Made by a program: the position numbers and the translations under genes. DNA of 64,000 nt, taken from positions 186,001 through 250,000 of IMG/VR virus record IMGVR_UViG_3300012582_000004. The stretch is one strand, 5' to 3'. Source of the DNA: a virus. Of this stretch, positions 4,232 to 63,666 are shown piece by piece. The notes beneath the pieces were generated by a model. The model was not told the origin of the DNA and did not search any database. It saw only the letters and a list, made by a program, of their open reading frames with translations. Positions within the stretch are counted from its first letter, which is position 1. Every line of letters begins with the position of its first letter.

Positions 4232-4906
4232 ATGGAAAAGATAATTTTAGAAATTCGTCAAGCCGAAGGTGGTGATGATGCGAAACTACTTACAGAAGAT
4301 ATGGCTAATATTTATATCAAAGCATCCAATATTCAAAACTTCAAAGTTAAACCTATTGAGTGAAGAGATGGCTTCATAACACTTTCTGTTGAAGGTGAAG
4401 GCGTGAAGCAATATTTTTCAAATGAAAGCGGTATTCATTGTTGGAATAGAGTTCCTCCTACAGAAAAAAGAGGAAGAATGCAAACTAGTTATGTATCAGT
4501 ATCCATTTTATCTCAATATAAAAAAACGTTTAATATGAATTGTGATGATGTGAGAGTTCTTTATACAAAAGGCTCTGGTCCTGGGGGACAAGCAAAGAAT
4601 AAATTAGAAACTTGTGTGGTATTAATGCACATTCCTACTAATATATCTGTTAGAATTGATGGTAGAAGTAGAGTTCATAATGAAAAAGAAGCTTGGAGAA
4701 TATTAGAAGATAGATTAAAAAAAGTTCATAACAATATAGAAGATAGTATTGAAAACACTAATAGGTTTGATCAAATTGGATATGGTAAAAGAGGTAATAA
4801 AAAAAGGAGTTATAAAGTAAAAGACAACTTAGTTATTGATCATGATACTAATAAGAAAATTCAATTAAAAGATATTCTTAAAGGTAGAATCGAACTTCTT
4901 AAATAA
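4232..4906 (+). CDS. RF1-like peptide chain release factor with an in-frame UGA at codon 44
   Basis: Read through the UGA (4361-4363), the protein has 224 codons. It begins LEIRQAEGGDDA, equivalent to the EIRAGTGGDE strand of RF1 domain 2. It continues with VPPTEKRGRMQTS, whose P-P-T fits the RF1 PxT codon-recognition motif. Then comes the catalytic GGQ loop (GSGPGGQAKNK). The N-terminal domain 1 is absent. Neither the +1 nor the -1 frame stays open after the UGA, so frameshifting alone does not rescue it. Either UGA is read through, or a downstream GTG (4403) starts a truncated protein, or the gene is decaying. UGA is a normal stop elsewhere in this window. Confidence 0.7.
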
Positions 4907-24092: not shown

Positions 24093-24114
24093 TATAAAAG
24101 ACTTTAAATATCTT

Positions 24115-24146
24115 AAACCCTAAGTTCAAAAGACTTAGGGTTTTTT
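24115..24146 (+). terminator. Intrinsic terminator
   Basis: An 11-bp stem AAACCCTAAGT and complement, 7-base loop, then T6. Confidence 0.85.
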
Positions 24147-24174
24147 GTTTTATATTAAAAAAATTAATGAAATT

Positions 24175-24417
24175 ATGGAAAAGATAATGATTAAAGTTGT
24201 GGGTATGTTTAGTAATTGTTATATTCCTAAATATGATATGTATTTTGCTACAAAAACAGAACATGGTAATGATGCTATAATTAAAAAAGCAAATGCAATG
24301 ATAACAGTTTCAAATAATTTTAAAAACATTAATGAAGATTATAAAAGACAATTAGAAAATGAAGATGAAAAAAATAATGAAACGAAGGCTATATTGGATG
24401 GATATAAAGTGATGTAG
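24175..24417 (+). CDS. Hypothetical protein, 80 aa
   Basis: The ATG at 24175 is chosen because upstream in-frame codons run into the terminator. Contains a Cys/Tyr-rich centre (MFSNCYIPKYDMYFATK) and a charged helical tail. It lies directly before the tRNA array. Confidence 0.5.
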   Translation: MEKIMIKVVGMFSNCYIPKYDMYFATKTEHGNDAIIKKANAMITVSNNFKNINEDYKRQLENEDEKNNETKAILDGYKVM

Positions 24418-24425
24418 TTTTTAAT

Positions 24426-24505
24426 GCTCCCATGGTGGAATGGCAGACACGCTCGGCTTAAAATCGAGTGCCTTGTGCATACAGGTTCAAGTCCTGTTGG
24501 GAGTA
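24426..24505 (+). tRNA. tRNA-Leu (UAA)
   Basis: Acceptor GCTCCCA with TGGGAGT, anticodon loop CTTAAAA, T-arm ACAGG-TTCAAGT-CCTGT, long variable region of 13 nt, Leu-type D-arm GTGGAATGGCAGACAC. No CCA is encoded. Confidence 0.9.
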
Positions 24506-24518
24506 CTAATTATCACAT

Positions 24519-24604
24519 GCCCTTGTGATGTAATGCAGCCATGAACGCCTTAGAAGCGTTTGCGAAGTAATAGTAGCGTGTAGGTTCGAGTCCTACCAAG
24601 GGTA
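24519..24604 (+). tRNA. tRNA-Leu (UAG)
   Basis: Acceptor GCCCTTG with CAAGGGT, anticodon stem AACGC/GCGTT with loop CTTAGAA, long variable arm, T-arm GTAGG/CCTAC. Reads CUA and other CUN codons. Confidence 0.9.
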
Positions 24605-24613
24605 CACAATAAT

Positions 24614-24702
24614 GGAGGGAATCTGGCTGGATGAAGAGCCAATCTTGAAAATTGGTAAATCGGTGATGAACTGGTTTGTGGGTTCGAGTCCCACTTCCTC
24701 CT
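24614..24702 (+). tRNA. tRNA-Ser (UGA)
   Basis: Acceptor GGAGGGA with TTCCTCC, anticodon stem CCAAT/ATTGG with loop CTTGAAA, long variable arm, T-arm GTGGG/CCCAC. The anticodon UGA reads UCA; it is not a UGA suppressor. Confidence 0.9.
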
Positions 24703-24708
24703 CAAAAT

Positions 24709-24781
24709 GGTACTATGGCCGAGTGGATATAGGCGCACGTCTGCAAAACGTGATACATCAGTTCGAACCTGATTAGTACCT
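24709..24781 (+). tRNA. tRNA-Cys (GCA)
   Basis: Acceptor GGTACTA with TAGTACC, anticodon stem CACGT/ACGTG with loop CTGCAAA, short variable loop, T-arm ATCAG/CTGAT. Confidence 0.9.
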
Positions 24782-24788
24782 CAAAAAT

Positions 24789-24875
24789 GGAGAGTAGGCA
24801 AATATTGGTTTGTTGCGGCATCCTGCTAAGATGTTCCGTATAAAAGCGGTGAGGGTTCAATTCCCTTGCTCTCCT
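24789..24875 (+). tRNA. tRNA-Ser (GCU)
   Basis: Acceptor GGAGAGT with GCTCTCC, anticodon stem GCATC/GATGT with loop CTGCTAA, long variable arm. Reads AGC/AGU. The T-stem GAGGG/CCCTT has a G-U closing pair. Confidence 0.88.
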
Positions 24876-24954
24876 CAAATAAAGTTCTATTGTGTAAATA
24901 TTATCACACTTAAACGTAGCCGAACTTTTTGATATATAATATCAAAAAAAAGCT

Positions 24955-25659
24955 ATGAGTTTAAAAAGTGAGAAAATATTAAAGTATGCTAAAAAAATTA
25001 GAGCGATTGAATTATTAGGTGGTTGTTGCATTGAATGTGGTGTTGATAATATACATAAATTATGTTTTCACCATATAAATAGAAATGATAAAAAATTTGA
25101 TATTTCGGATAAATTAGGATTAAAGTGGAACAAAATAAAAGATGAAGTTATAAAATGTGAGTTATTATGTTTAAATTGTCATACAGAAAAACATTATAAT
25201 GAAATTTCTGATAAAAAAGATATAAAAAGAAGGAGTGAAAAAAAACTATTTATTTCAATAAAGGGTGATTCATGTGAATATTGTAATTATAATAAGTGTG
25301 ATGCAACATTAGAATTTCATCATCATAATGATAATAAAAATTTCTCTATAGGGAAAAAAAGATTAACTAAAAATAATTTATTATTATTTATAGAAGAAAT
25401 AAACAAGTGTACTTTATTATGTAAAAATTGCCATATTCATTTACATAAAGATAGTTTCTATGATGATAATAAAGATGAAATAATAAAAAAGAAAAATGAT
25501 TATATTGATTTAAATAAAATTGATTTAGATAAATTTTTTGAATTATATAATGGTGGGTATAAACAAGTTGAAATATCAAAACTGTTAAATTGTTCAAAAA
25601 GTAGAATCTCAGAATTAGTTTCAAAATATTTTAAAGGGAAGAATACTCAAGTGATTTAA
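24955..25659 (+). CDS. Duplicated HNH-type endonuclease inside the tRNA array
   Basis: Two similar zinc/HNH units: CCIECG..FHHINR..CLNCH and CEYCNY..FHHHND..CKNCHIHLH. A C-terminal helix-turn-helix-like segment follows (YKQVEISKLLNCSKSRISELV). This is the layout of phage homing endonucleases that bind tRNA or structural genes. Its last 23 nt overlap the start of tRNA-Ser(GGA), so the stop lies inside the tRNA. Confidence 0.75.
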   Translation: MSLKSEKILKYAKKIRAIELLGGCCIECGVDNIHKLCFHHINRNDKKFDISDKLGLKWNKIKDEVIKCELLCLNCHTEKHYNEISDKKDIKRRSEKKLFISIKGDSCEYCNYNKCDATLEFHHHNDNKNFSIGKKRLTKNNLLLFIEEINKCTLLCKNCHIHLHKDSFYDDNKDEIIKKKNDYIDLNKIDLDKFFELYNGGYKQVEISKLLNCSKSRISELVSKYFKGKNTQVI

Positions 25660-25727
25660 GAGGATACATTGGAAATGTATTAGATCGGGATTAACCTGGT
25701 GCGTGAGTTTGAATCTCACTTCTTCCA
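25637..25727 (+). tRNA. tRNA-Ser (GGA)
   Basis: Acceptor GGAAGAA with TTCTTCC, anticodon stem ATACA/TGTAT with loop TTGGAAA, long variable arm, T-arm GTGAG/CTCAC. Its 5' end overlaps the HNH gene by 23 nt. Confidence 0.88.
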
Positions 25728-25732
25728 CAAAT

Positions 25733-25806
25733 GGCTTAGTGATGTAATTGGTAAACGTGTTCGGTTCAAACCCGAAATTTTATAGGTTCGAGTCCTATCT
25801 AAGCTA
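25733..25806 (+). tRNA. tRNA with anticodon CAA (Leu), short variable loop
   Basis: Acceptor GGCTTAG with CTAAGCT, Leu-like D-arm, anticodon stem TTCGG/CCGAA with loop TTCAAAC, T-arm ATAGG/CCTAT. The variable region is about 5 nt, unlike normal tRNA-Leu, so amino acid identity is less certain. Confidence 0.75.
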
Positions 25807-25817
25807 CAATAATAAAT

Positions 25818-25892
25818 GCCATTGTGGTGGAATTGGTTATACACACTAGTCTAAGAAACTAGGAATTGCAGGTTCGACTCCTGTCAATGGTA
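25818..25892 (+). tRNA. tRNA with anticodon AAG (Leu), short variable loop
   Basis: Acceptor GCCATTG with CAATGGT, D-arm GTGGAATTGGTTATACAC typical of Leu, anticodon stem CTAGT/ACTAG with loop CTAAGAA, T-arm GCAGG/CCTGT. The variable region is about 5 nt. A34 is unusual in bacteria and might be converted to inosine. Confidence 0.75.
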
Positions 25893-25911
25893 CTAAAAAA
25901 TATATATTTAT

Positions 25912-37744: not shown

Positions 37745-38110
37745 ATGAAAATGAACATAAATGAATTAGATTTATCACAATTTGAATATATAGGATCGGA
37801 AATTGAGCATAACATTTCAAATGTTGGATTTAAAGATTATTTTATATATGATAATTTATTAGTATTAGTAGTTCCAAGTGTTATTATTAAATTTTATGAC
37901 AAAAAACTAAGTATGACACATAGTGAAAATCTTTATATGTTGAATAAAATTTTACATTTAATTACAAAGCACATTAATTTTACAGAAAATTATTCAAATA
38001 TGATGAATAATATAAAACAAACCATAGGACGTAATTATATTACATATGATGCTATTAAATTAGCATATCGTATATCATTGAGAAGAAGAAAAATTGATGA
38101 ATTATTATGA
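37745..38110 (+). CDS. C-terminally tagged hypothetical protein, 121 aa
   Basis: Ends RRRKIDELL, a clear example of the shared tag. The body is Ile/Leu-rich and mixed. Its TGA overlaps the next ATG. Confidence 0.55.
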   Translation: MKMNINELDLSQFEYIGSEIEHNISNVGFKDYFIYDNLLVLVVPSVIIKFYDKKLSMTHSENLYMLNKILHLITKHINFTENYSNMMNNIKQTIGRNYITYDAIKLAYRISLRRRKIDELL

Positions 38111-38556
38111 ACATTGCCAGAAAATTTATAATTTCAGAAGTTTTACAATTACCACCTACAAATTTTTCAGAGGAAGAGTTAAATACGTTGAATATATTTT
38201 ATAATTTATTTCTAAAAATAAAAATGTTTACTGAAAATGATATTCAATATTATTTTATGCATAATCATTGTATATTTATGTTCAATCCTAAAACAAATGA
38301 TGTAAAATTTAATGTAATATTTTATTATATATTTATGCGAGATTATAAATTTACAGATAATAGTCTAAAATATTTTTTAAAACTATATTTAACTGCTATT
38401 TTTAAATTGGATGTAAAAAATGTTGATTGTTACGAGAAATCATTTTCACACATAGAAGATATGTATTTCAAACACTCTTTATGGAATCCTATTAGAAAAA
38501 TAAATGGTATTTTAGTTTCTATTTATTCTTTTGTTTTAAAAAAATTTAATCATTAA
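38107..38556 (+). CDS. Hypothetical protein, 149 aa
   Basis: Phe/Tyr-rich helical protein (FNVIFYYIFMRDYKF). No tag. Overlaps its upstream neighbour by 4 nt and the convergent gene by 11 nt. Confidence 0.5.
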   Translation: MNIARKFIISEVLQLPPTNFSEEELNTLNIFYNLFLKIKMFTENDIQYYFMHNHCIFMFNPKTNDVKFNVIFYYIFMRDYKFTDNSLKYFLKLYLTAIFKLDVKNVDCYEKSFSHIEDMYFKHSLWNPIRKINGILVSIYSFVLKKFNH

Positions 38557-59725: not shown

Positions 59726-60280
59726 CTATACAAAACCATACTTACACTTAACTAATATCGTACCATCATAATCCATCACAGCTTTAATAAAACTAAAAGG
59801 CATAAAAATCCTACCATTAGCATTTTCTACAATATCATTGAAAATATTATTACATAATCTATCGTAAAATTTACCATTCTCTTCTAAAGTATTTTTATTT
59901 ATAGTTTCTCTATATGTATTATTCACCTGAATAGATTCTAAAAAATCTTCATAGTCCAAATCATTATCTAAGTTCTCTATCGTAAACTTTCTAACAATTC
60001 CTCTATCGTAGTTATGTCTAATTTGAATACCATGCTTAATTAGCTTACTCAATACTAACCATGTTAAATGTGTACCATCAAAAGTTTTGTATGTTAAAGA
60101 AGAATCTTTGTATATAGTCGTTGAATTATCTAAAGAACTTATATACATAGATGCTTGCTCCATACATATAGAGAAATTGGTAATATCTTCTATACTTGTA
60201 GTATTTGCTAAAGGTGTCCATTTATTAATTATATTACCAATAATATTTTTATCAGCTAATATATGTCTCATTGCGCTCAT
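59726..60280 (-). CDS. Family F protein, copy 2 (184 aa)
   Basis: Paralog of the 46976 protein (SKLIKHGIQIRHNYDRG, ANGR, end KCKYGFV). ATGA overlap with the stop of the upstream family H gene. Last gene of the leftward array. Confidence 0.6.
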   Translation of the reverse strand: MSAMRHILADKNIIGNIINKWTPLANTTSIEDITNFSICMEQASMYISSLDNSTTIYKDSSLTYKTFDGTHLTWLVLSKLIKHGIQIRHNYDRGIVRKFTIENLDNDLDYEDFLESIQVNNTYRETINKNTLEENGKFYDRLCNNIFNDIVENANGRIFMPFSFIKAVMDYDGTILVKCKYGFV

Positions 60281-60702
60281 AATAGTCTTTCAATTTTCTC
60301 TGCCCTAATATCAGTAGCTATATCAATAAGTATATTATAAAATTTGGGTACATTTAATGTAGAGTATATTTCATTGCATTTGTCATAATATAATGAATAT
60401 AAATTGTATTCATTTTTATCACTCTCAGATATTAATCTATATGTACCACATATATTATATTTTCTATTATAATCAATAGGAATATTATATCTAACAATTG
60501 TTATAACTAATTGATGCCTAACTTCATTATTCCATATATATAATTGTGGGTATAAAATAATATCAACTTTATCATTAATTTTAATTGTAATCCCATCATT
60601 ATACATTATTGTATAATCACCATTATCTAATTTATTATCAATAACTGTGCTATAAGTATCAAAAAAACTTTTTAATATTACAGTTTTATCTTTAATTTCC
60701 AT
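60277..60702 (-). CDS. Tagged family H, copy 1 (141 aa)
   Basis: Family H pattern: K..V...FF..Y...I..KL.NGDY.., then INDKVDIILYP, an I-x-R-Y segment, a short Y-N-I-C variant of GYARKYxI, LYSLYYDK, TLNVP and the tag DIRAEKIERLL. Most divergent full-length copy. Confidence 0.6.
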   Translation of the reverse strand: MEIKDKTVILKSFFDTYSTVIDNKLDNGDYTIMYNDGITIKINDKVDIILYPQLYIWNNEVRHQLVITIVRYNIPIDYNRKYNICGTYRLISESDKNEYNLYSLYYDKCNEIYSTLNVPKFYNILIDIATDIRAEKIERLL

Positions 60703-61127
60703 TATAATAATTCGTTTATTTTCTCTATCCTAATATCAGTAGTAATATTATTGAATAAAGTAGCTGCGAGAAATGTATTCTTTTCGGGGATATTAATAGT
60801 AGTGTATATATCATTAGATTTATTATAGTATAATGAATATAAATTCCACATGTTATTATTTTCTGAACATGATAAAACATAACTGCTATAAATTTCATAT
60901 TTTCTAGCATATCCTGTAACATCAGTATATCTATTAATAGATATTCCTATTGTCCCAGTATCTCCAATATATGAATATGGAATTAATCTAACATCATACC
61001 TATCATTTATTCTAATATAAATTCCAACTAAATTTAATTTATAATCACCATTATTTAACTTAGCATTTATGATACTATTATAAGCATTAAAGAAGTTCCT
61101 TATAACTTTTTTATCTTTTTCGTTCAT
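60702..61127 (-). CDS. Tagged family H, copy 2 (141 aa)
   Basis: Family H core (NAYNSIINAKLNNGDYKL, RYTDVTGYARKYEI, LYSLYYNKSNDIY), end DIRIEKINELL. One-base overlap with both neighbours. Confidence 0.65.
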   Translation of the reverse strand: MNEKDKKVIRNFFNAYNSIINAKLNNGDYKLNLVGIYIRINDRYDVRLIPYSYIGDTGTIGISINRYTDVTGYARKYEIYSSYVLSCSENNNMWNLYSLYYNKSNDIYTTINIPEKNTFLAATLFNNITTDIRIEKINELL

Positions 61128-61537
61128 TATATTAAATTCTCAATTTTACTTTTTCTTAAATCTGTATTAACATCATCAAAATTAATAGATATTGAAACAT
61201 GTCCATTAAATGTAGAATATATTTTATTTAATATCCCATAATATAAAGTAAATAATTTAAACTTACTATTGATTTCATTGCTATAAAATCCATAAGTATC
61301 GTAAATATCATATTTCCTAGCATGACCTGTAATATCTGTATATCTAATAATAGAAACACTTAATGTCTTAGTAGAAGATGAATTAAATGGATATAATAAA
61401 ACATCATATCTATCATTTATTATAATAGTAACATATCTATTTTTTAATTTATAATCACCATTATTCAATTTGTCCTGTATAATATTATTATACTCACTAA
61501 AAAATGATGCTATAATTTTTTCCTCTTTTTCACTCAT
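61127..61537 (-). CDS. Tagged family H, copy 3 (136 aa)
   Basis: Family H core with RYTDITGHARKYDI; end DLRKSKIENLI. Confidence 0.65.
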   Translation of the reverse strand: MSEKEEKIIASFFSEYNNIIQDKLNNGDYKLKNRYVTIIINDRYDVLLYPFNSSSTKTLSVSIIRYTDITGHARKYDIYDTYGFYSNEINSKFKLFTLYYGILNKIYSTFNGHVSISINFDDVNTDLRKSKIENLI

Positions 61538-61779
61538 TACATTAAATTCTCAATTTTAGTTACTCTATACTCAGCAGGTGTTTGAAAGTTATTTAGTATC
61601 TGCATATCAGTTTTAAATACACTATAAAAATACATATCATTTAAAGTTAATATCATTTCATCATTAGATAATAAACATGTATATCTTTCTCCCTTATTAA
61701 ATAATTTATAATAAGGATAGTTAATAGTGTTAACACATATTAAGTAATCAATACCTCTATATTTAGAAAAAACTCCCAT
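61537..61779 (-). CDS. Tagged small protein inside family H array, 80 aa
   Basis: Not clearly family H: starts MGVFSKYRGIDYLICVNT and lacks the NGDY and GYARKY segments, but ends EYRVTKIENLM, so it carries the tag. Confidence 0.55.
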   Translation of the reverse strand: MGVFSKYRGIDYLICVNTINYPYYKLFNKGERYTCLLSNDEMILTLNDMYFYSVFKTDMQILNNFQTPAEYRVTKIENLM

Positions 61780-62216
61780 TACTCTAATAAGTTATCTATT
61801 TTTTGTAATCTAATATCATTCTTAATGTCATCGAATAACATAAACTTAAATTGGTCATTAAAAATATTATTAGATGGTATATTAAGTGTGGAATATATCT
61901 CGTTAGATTTACTATAATATAATTTATATTCATCATCACCATCATTGATCGAAAATGAATAACTATTGTGAATATCATGTAATCTAGCATATCCTGTAAT
62001 ATCAGTATACCTAACAATAGTTGTTTCTAACATAGATGCCATACCCTTATTTGCTTTATATGAGAATGGAAAGAACATAACATCAAATCGCTCATTAATT
62101 TTAATAATGATATGTCTCAATTTTAACTCATAATCACCACTATCTAATTTAGTATCTATTATAACATTATAAGTATCGAAGAAGTCTGCTATAGTCTTTC
62201 TATCCTTTTTTATCAT
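61779..62216 (-). CDS. Tagged family H, copy 4 (145 aa)
   Basis: Family H core (DTYNVIIDTKLDSGDYEL, RYTDITGYARLHDI), end DIRLQKIDNLLE with one extra residue. Confidence 0.65.
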   Translation of the reverse strand: MIKKDRKTIADFFDTYNVIIDTKLDSGDYELKLRHIIIKINERFDVMFFPFSYKANKGMASMLETTIVRYTDITGYARLHDIHNSYSFSINDGDDEYKLYYSKSNEIYSTLNIPSNNIFNDQFKFMLFDDIKNDIRLQKIDNLLE

Positions 62217-62230
62217 ATTCCCAATTCCTA

Positions 62231-62659
62231 TTATAATAGTCTATCTATTTTCTCTACCCTAATATCACTATAAATTTCTTTGAATAAACTAAACCCATCA
62301 CTTTTAGGTATATTAAGTGTAGAATATATCTCATTAGATTTATTATAGTATAAGGAATATAAATTATATTCATCATCATTTTCTCTACAATTAAATCCAT
62401 AACTTCTAATAATATTATGTTTCCTAGCATACCCAGTAATATCAGCATATCTAATAATAGTTATTTCTATCAATGGTGTATCACCATTACCATACCAAAT
62501 TGTTGTATGTGGATACATCTTAATATCAAATCTATCACTTACTCTAATAGTAATATCCATCTGCTTTAATTCATAATCACCATTATCCAATTTAGCATTT
62601 ATTATACTATTATAAGTATTGAAGAAGCTTGCTACAATCTTTTTATCTCCCGTTAACAT
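62231..62659 (-). CDS. Tagged family H, copy 5 (142 aa)
   Basis: Family H core (NTYNSIINAKLDNGDYEL, RYADITGYARKHNI), end DIRVEKIDRLL. First gene of the leftward array, behind a class B promoter. Confidence 0.65.
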   Translation of the reverse strand: MLTGDKKIVASFFNTYNSIINAKLDNGDYELKQMDITIRVSDRFDIKMYPHTTIWYGNGDTPLIEITIIRYADITGYARKHNIIRSYGFNCRENDDEYNLYSLYYNKSNEIYSTLNIPKSDGFSLFKEIYSDIRVEKIDRLL

Positions 62660-62677
62660 ATTAATAATTCATATTAT

Positions 62678-62706
62678 CATTATAGCGGAATTATATGGGA
62701 AAGTTT
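62678..62706 (-). promoter_or_regulatory. Class B promoter
   Basis: AAACTTTCC, 13 bp, TATAATG, 18 bp before the family H array. Confidence 0.6.
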
Positions 62707-62711
62707 TATTT

Positions 62712-62739
62712 AAACTATTAAGAATATTTATGTATAATA
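62712..62739 (+). promoter_or_regulatory. Class B promoter
   Basis: AAACTATTA, 12 bp, TATAATA, back to back with the leftward promoter at 62678. Confidence 0.5.
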
Positions 62740-62755
62740 AGTAAACTATAAATAC

Positions 62756-62935
62756 ATGGATATAAAGAATATTGTATGTAGTAATTGCAATTCTACAAAT
62801 ATAACAATTACAAAAAAAAGAAAAAGAACAAGTGGTAAATTAGTTCATGGTAGAAAAATGAGCTATGGATATTGTTACAATGAACATGTTTGTAATAACT
62901 GTCAGAATACATGGAAAAAAGAAACAAGCTTATAA
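62756..62935 (+). CDS. Small zinc-ribbon protein, 59 aa
   Basis: VCSNCNS and VCNNCQNTW give a CxxC...CxxC ribbon around a very basic loop (KKRKRTSGK). Probably nucleic-acid-binding. One-base overlap with the next gene. Confidence 0.6.
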   Translation: MDIKNIVCSNCNSTNITITKKRKRTSGKLVHGRKMSYGYCYNEHVCNNCQNTWKKETSL

Positions 62936-63240
62936 TGACAAAATTCGAACAATATCAAAAGTACTCAAAATCTATAGTAGATGAATTTATAGACAAATGC
63001 TCTATGAAACATGATTACCTGGATTATTGTAATGCTCTTAGAATAGATAGTAATACATATTATACTTTCTATACAGCTAATACTAAAAGCCTTTTGGAAT
63101 TATCATTTGATACAAATCCACACACTTTATCCAAAGCAAATGTATATACTTCTAAAAGACGTAAGGAAGCTACTAAATGGCTAATAACAAATCATCTTAG
63201 TTATGAACAATGGTTATTGAAAAATAAAATATCACTATAA
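62935..63240 (+). CDS. Hypothetical protein, 101 aa
   Basis: ATG overlaps the zinc-ribbon stop. Helical, with SKRRKEATKWLITNHLSYEQW near the end. No tag. Confidence 0.55.
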   Translation: MTKFEQYQKYSKSIVDEFIDKCSMKHDYLDYCNALRIDSNTYYTFYTANTKSLLELSFDTNPHTLSKANVYTSKRRKEATKWLITNHLSYEQWLLKNKISL

Positions 63241-63666
63241 TAGATTTTCTATTTTATCTATTCTAATATCATTGTTAATATCCTTAAATATCTCTTCCGA
63301 TCTAAATGGAATAATGTAAGGGATATTAAGTGTAGAATATATCTCATTAAATTTTTCATAATATGAATATAAATTAAATTTATCATTATTTTCATTACAA
63401 GTAAATGCATGAATATTATGAATATTATATTTTCTAGCATATCCCGTAACATCCTTATATCTAACAATAGTTACTTCCAACAATGGTATATCGCCATTAC
63501 CATTCCAATTAGCTATATACGGATAAAATTTAACATCGAATCTATCATTTATTTTAATGGTAATATACCTCTGCTTTAATTCATAATCACCATTATCTAA
63601 CTTATTATCTATTATACCCTTATAGGTATCGAAGAAGTTTGCTATAACATCACCATTCGTTTTCAT
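63235..63666 (-). CDS. Tagged family H, copy 6 (143 aa)
   Basis: Family H core (DTYKGIIDNKLDNGDYEL, RYKDVTGYARKYNI), end DIRIDKIENLL. Separated from the rest of the array by two rightward genes and served by its own class B promoter. Confidence 0.65.
   Translation of the reverse strand: MKTNGDVIANFFDTYKGIIDNKLDNGDYELKQRYITIKINDRFDVKFYPYIANWNGNGDIPLLEVTIVRYKDVTGYARKYNIHNIHAFTCNENNDKFNLYSYYEKFNEIYSTLNIPYIIPFRSEEIFKDINNDIRIDKIENLL

Follow-up and report, generated by a model that had tools for sequence, protein, structure and literature searches.

The DNA analysed here (the window: 64,000 nucleotides, positions 186,001 to 250,000 of the virus record IMGVR_UViG_3300012582_000004) contains, at 4232-4906, a class-I release factor gene that is interrupted by an in-frame UGA and involves no frameshift. 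Comparison with its relatives in phages and bacteria shows that such an internal stop codon, which we call a gate, is kept by selection across a family of release factors, and that a conserved release factor is encoded beyond it. At the level of sequence, these comparisons strongly support readthrough.

A release factor gene with an in-frame UGA

The features of the gene, all on the + strand, are these:

4232..4906, +: complete class-I release factor gene; 224 residues with the UGA read through; RF1-like, without domain 1
4361..4363, +: internal in-frame UGA gate, codon 44, in the context GAG UGA AGA
4232..4363, +: short product if the ribosome stops at the internal UGA; 43 residues, including the GGxD helix start of domain 2
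4268..4279, +: GGDD motif; GGxD in 90/90 family members, GGxE in canonical RF1, GGEE in Thermus RF1
4454..4462, +: PPT stop-codon recognition tripeptide (sequence motif), of the RF1 PxT type
4583..4591, +: GGQ peptide-release motif (sequence motif)

The ATG at 4232 and the terminal TAA at 4904-4906 were read in the sequence. When codon 44 is taken as a residue, the product matches the Pfam domains PCRF (residues 3-90) and RF-1 (residues 100-204), with E-values of about 1e-18 each. Homology thus runs in the same frame on either side of the TGA, as the earlier note on this DNA had claimed. The TGA, which the note put between domain-2 strands, falls at the end of one such strand (38-45), shortly ahead of the next (48-55). 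RF1 models gave the top score for the product, with matches beginning at about profile position 105-113, where domain 2 starts, so the product consists of domains 2-4 only. It scored 155.7 bits against the curated prfA model (cut-off 423.25) and 62.8 bits against the release_prfH model (cut-off 166.65), and falls below both. The AlphaFold2 model of the readthrough product (pLDDT 90.6), computed from rows of the window and the fetched loci, has the domain 2-4 fold of RF1 and RF2, with a TM-score of 0.93 and an rmsd of 1.5 Å to Thermus RF1 on the ribosome. The RF1-type assignment, made in the earlier note from the PPT motif, therefore agrees with the best profile match and with the modelled fold.

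After the UGA, coding resumes in the same frame and not in the +1 frame. The +1 frame is closed by a TAA at 4377-4379, and the other shifted frame by a TGA about 30 nt past the internal stop. Since both are shut within about 35 nt, as had been noticed before, the two halves cannot be joined by a single frameshift, and a classic +1 shift was rejected for this gene. The prfB slip site, CUU-UGA-C with an upstream Shine-Dalgarno-like sequence, is absent from the window gene, which reads GAG UGA A at that point.

UGA is an ordinary terminator in these phages

The virus record of the window (347,857 bases) matches part of LR756504.1 (636,363 bases; W01 below) at 100% identity, in circularly permuted form. 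Both LR756504.1 and IMGVR_UViG_3300012582_000194 are identical to the window over 3.7 kb, TGA included; these matching records are the same phage and thus provide no independent evolutionary evidence. Five huge-phage genomes of more than 634 kb have been put in the Mahaphage clade, with hosts predicted to be Bacteroidetes, in a study that predicted genes with code 11 (PMC7162821). Such a prediction would cut the release factor gene at its internal UGA.

TGA ends 123 of 917 ORFs in W01, 174 of 917 in W04, and 207 of 995 in W03 (13-21% in the three phages counted), and it terminates 10-15% of the genes conserved among them (23/216 in W01). It is also an ordinary stop in the genes flanking the family loci. 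This bears out what had been seen among the neighbouring genes of the window, as do their ATGA overlaps (e.g., 37745-38110 with 38107-38556), and genome-wide recoding of UGA was rejected on these grounds.

We screened four phages of 635-735 kb (W01-W04) for TGA codons with homology on both sides, with antisense shadow frames removed. The release factor was found in all four and was the sole gene repeatedly interrupted. The remaining matches were weak, close to tRNAs, or 5' of start codons, except for one W01 candidate at 629380. This second candidate in-frame TGA (W01 629251-629604, L055:9251-9604, + strand, outside the window) reads ...QDGTQDR*RVNISVP... and corresponds to Gly in its W02 and W03 relatives. 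The TAG and TAA versions of the screen were noisy because W02 and W04 are closely related.

Among the tRNAs that ARAGORN detected in W01-W04, none has the anticodon UCA, and W01 and W02 gave no tRNA-Trp at all; W03 and W04 encode a tRNA-Trp(CCA) (W03 204163-204235, W04 343033-343104). Position 24 of these two seems, by eye, to be an A; the Hirsh UGA suppressor and the tRNA of Mimivirus have the same base there. The 735 kb phage W03 has two further tRNA genes with amber-reading CTA anticodons (690585-690738, L122:10585-10738, + strand), despite which TAG terminates about 5% of its ORFs. Several near-identical, odd tRNA-like genes occur in G000 (24108-24181, 82692-82911, 267924-268135, - strand); Infernal accepts them, and ARAGORN misses them or cannot assign them. 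The window itself has eight tRNA genes (Leu, Ser, Cys) at 24426-25893, in two blocks divided by an ORF (24955-25659) that, to the eye, has an HNH-like Cys/His pattern. It also encodes a tandem series of paralogues, similar to one another and about 140 residues long (60277-63666, - strand).

An internal stop is found in nearly all members of the family

A search with four mega-phage proteins as query yielded 80 viral and 26 genome loci, and 90 distinct readable genes are the base for the family counts and the tree. An internal stop in early domain 2 is present in 83 of them and absent from seven. This is the reverse of relatives with a sense codon and a single broken copy, the outcome that the earlier note had named as fatal to its reading. 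Coding continues in the same frame past one or two internal stops in 53/90 genes. In another 30/90, the stop is followed by the +1 frame, mostly at prfB-type sites like CGG AGG GGT CTT TGA/TAG C; RF2-type shifting, which the earlier note dismissed for the window gene and which the frames exclude there, does occur in about one-third of the family. The gates (n = 93) comprise 83 UGA, 10 UAG, and no UAA codons, so that UGA is the usual gate codon but can be replaced by UAG.

The column of the window UGA is also UGA in seven distinct relatives (L006, L125, L126, L128, L133, L135, and L205). These have a second gate, UGA or UAG, eight codons further on, where the window copy has a serine. At the commonest gate column, F, L, Y, W, or I takes the place of the stop in relatives with a sense codon, while other gate columns tolerate many residues; Cys was not found among homologues at the i25, i32, and i40 gate columns.

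The PPT tripeptide and, mostly, Gln181 and Thr194 (RF1-type residues) are kept in the family. The His193 position is Gln in many members; His193 is kept in the i25 clade (defined below), which is UGA-gated all the same. A few members have PPN (L149, L179, and L217) or PPS (L157) in place of PxT. In Nannocystis, Minicystis, and Novimethylophilus the factor is additional, since two full-length release factor genes are present in the same genomes. No conserved neighbours hinting at a function were common to the loci scanned. At L141:1966-3690, and also in L139, a partial release factor copy with two TGAs breaks off ahead of an HNH-like ORF, beyond which lies a full copy, an arrangement such as a mobile element might leave on splitting or duplicating the gene.

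The gates are under selection

In the tree of the 90 members, same-frame genes cluster together and so do shifted ones, with exceptions in both directions: L134 (CTT TAG, +1) is nested in the same-frame mega-phage clade, and L142 (CTA TGA, same frame) lies in the shifted group. These positions indicate that the mode of escape switches on the tree while the stop is retained. Tree rows are not independent, and the counts therefore overstate the evidence.

Programmed readthrough is marked by a conserved stop with selection for same-frame coding on either side of it. This pattern was found, most strongly in the largest same-frame clade (i25, whose gate lies 25 codons past the EGG motif). UGA occupies the gate in 58/58 further anchored distinct loci of this clade, leaving out three more that the motif mis-anchored. 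Median dN/dS is 0.19 before the UGA and 0.15 after it, i.e., purifying selection acts on both sides, and synonymous constraint is strongest from the UGA onward. A 60-nt window that starts 14 nt past the first base of the UGA has a mean z of -3.40 relative to shuffles (n = 35), versus -0.1 to -1.2 in other windows. The corresponding stem begins at the eighth nucleotide past the UGA; 81% of its cells are paired, against 31-46% when it is slid, a control that somewhat favours the structure because the structure was derived from those same rows. Both sides changed in 12/15 pairs, and 0/500 shuffles were as high. Plain RNAalifold gave no structure; it was found by the RIBOSUM version and is backed by the pair counts.

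The base after the gate points the same way: T follows 0/47 same-frame gates in unique contexts and 131/332 terminal TGAs of W01, W03, and W04, a comparison weakened as a test by relatedness and amino-acid choice. An ATG between the gate and PxT is present in only 4/53 same-frame genes, so restart would seldom yield a complete domain 2, and the possibility of restart or of two separate proteins was rejected.

The window copy has one further feature:

4365..4417, +: predicted RNA stem-loop, a possible readthrough stimulator; 61-nt fold of -16.7 kcal/mol with z -2.98, but z only -1.45 for 81 nt

The signal of a putative readthrough-stimulating RNA element is thus strong in the i25 clade and no more than suggestive in the window copy, where it comes from a predicted fold. 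This copy has a single gate, lies on a long branch (0.94), and belongs to a clade under weaker purifying selection (median dN/dS 0.43, 13 pairs); the case for it comes largely from kinship with the rest of the family.

Relation to known recoded release factors

The nearest precedent is the eRF1 of Mimivirus (R726) and Megavirus (mg280). Readthrough at UGA-C and a frameshift at CUU-UAG/UAA-C have been described for it, together with a Trp-tRNA that resembles the Hirsh suppressor (PMC3521657). It too is a viral class-I factor with an early coding UGA that needs readthrough, and it shares the CUU-stop-C shift site, Trp as the proposed insert, and a weak-termination base after the UGA (PMC3521657). 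Unlike the present family, the eRF1 is of eukaryotic/archaeal type, is encoded by amoeba viruses, and combines both events in one gene; the family described here is of bacterial type, occurs in phages and bacteria, usually has one mode per gene, and has a covarying stem-loop in one clade.

As in prfB, which encodes RF2, an early internal stop must be escaped for the factor to be synthesised (PMC12421855, PMC5009743), and the shifted relatives use the CTT-TGA-C site with an upstream Shine-Dalgarno-like sequence. In contrast, the window factor is RF1-type, lacks domain 1, and has its gate inside domain 2, where escape is in the same frame. UAG gates also occur in the family, whereas Prince et al. 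(2025) never found UAG in the prfB motif of 8,164 genomes and saw no convincing programmed shift in prfA (PMC12421855). The product resembles RF1 (prfA) in fold, GGQ, PxT, and top sequence match, but lacks domain 1, stays well short of the prfA cut-off, has GGxD instead of GGxE, and contains an internal stop. PrfH/RFH (PMC1586002) is likewise a class-I factor without domain 1 that is extra to RF1 and RF2; the present factor differs in retaining PPT, in its weak profile match, and in being recoded, and an RtcB neighbour was not found.

Atkins et al. (2016) reported that RF2 genes with an early UGA in the same frame had at one time been thought possible, with none found, and that a UAG/RF1 counterpart was not known; they also mention that a release factor gene of a giant amoeba virus has both readthrough and a frameshift (PMC5009743). 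The literature searched, which covered few subscription papers or preprints, gave no earlier account of this family. Standard-code gene callers split or truncate these genes, which may explain why they were overlooked.

A gate that probably opens when termination fails

We consider it likely that the window gene encodes an extra class-I release factor without domain 1, gated by its internal stop, that is made only when UGA termination is weak. Under efficient UGA termination, translation would end at codon 44 with a useless fragment of 43 residues. If UGA termination were slow, because the RF2 of the host was depleted, saturated, or blocked, the UGA would be decoded by a near-cognate aminoacyl-tRNA, with Trp-tRNA(CCA) the most likely, and the full factor made in frame. 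Trp would suit the gate columns, being among the residues of sense relatives at the commonest one. We infer that readthrough would rise as RF2 activity drops, the gate in effect sensing RF2, and that the product may then help to terminate phage messages, which mostly end in UAA.

That dozens of related genes keep an early stop suggests that the factor probably appears only once ordinary termination fails. The design common to the family would be that a stop codon must fail before the factor appears, by readthrough in the window phage and by a +1 shift aided by a Shine-Dalgarno-like sequence in many relatives; a fall in RF2 would be sensed by UGA gates and one in RF1 by UAG gates, and no gate is UAA, the stop on which both factors act. 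Because the factor looks RF1-like, its UGA gate would cross-sense RF2 rather than the factor itself, which is less simple than the autoregulation of prfB. The interpretation given in the earlier note thus survives as regards an RF1-type factor, same-frame readthrough, and UGA as an ordinary stop, and has to be widened to include +1 shifts and UAG gates; the RF2 dependence that it proposed stays an inference.

A live rival, which we nevertheless think unlikely, is true autoregulation, in which the factor, despite its PPT, would also recognise UGA (or all three stops), and the gate would close a negative feedback like that of prfB. It remains in contention because every member has GGxD where RF1 has GGxE, and many have Gln at the His193 position, which may allow a wider codon range. 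The use of both UGA and UAG as gates is consistent with it, as is the presence in shifted members of the prfB cassette, through which RF2 regulates itself (PMC12421855). Against it stand the retained RF1-type PPT, mostly with Gln181 and Thr194, and the i25 clade, which is UGA-gated yet retains His193. It is rather improbable that the gate is opened by a UGA suppressor tRNA supplied late in infection by the phage or the host, acting as a developmental switch and not as an RF2 sensor. Phages with recoded stops do carry suppressor tRNAs (PMC13037316), and two of these phages encode the tRNA-Trp(CCA). But the tRNA search of W01-W04 gave no UCA anticodon and, in W01 and W02, no tRNA-Trp; the screen pointed to no other gene that needs UGA suppression; and the +1 shifted relatives need none.

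A recent break or an assembly error is what a lone in-frame stop in one gene usually signals, and the long branch of the window copy could be read in this way. Conservation of the internal stop refutes both for the family, and for the window copy the agreement of three records, the intact motifs, and the UGA at the same column in seven other relatives make them very improbable. An alternative code, in which UGA is a sense codon in the phage or its host, would account for homology on both sides of the UGA. It is scarcely credible given the share of ORFs and conserved genes that end in TGA in W01 and a screen that yields essentially this gene alone, and neither the UAG gates nor the +1 shifts of relatives would follow from it. 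Selenocysteine, to which the conserved stem-loop close past the UGA in the largest clade might point, is just as hard to credit: it was rejected because the residues of sense relatives at the column are F, L, Y, W, or I and never C, and because UAG takes the place of UGA at another gate. Nor did any Rfam family reach its cut-off in the loci tested.

Implications

Our preferred reading, a factor released by weak termination, can be extended to the whole family, although here we stand slightly on the side of doubt. A widespread extra class-I factor of phages and some bacteria may act, behind its UGA or UAG gate, as a sensor of termination failure, and appear only on a collapse of RF2 or RF1 activity in the host, e.g., during host takeover. 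The family is large and natural, has a layout reported as never seen in bacterial RF1 and RF2 genes, and includes gates in which readthrough and frameshift interchange. It makes testable the question of why bacteria favour a shift over readthrough and would offer a natural sensor of termination efficiency. It also suggests that large phages manage termination actively.
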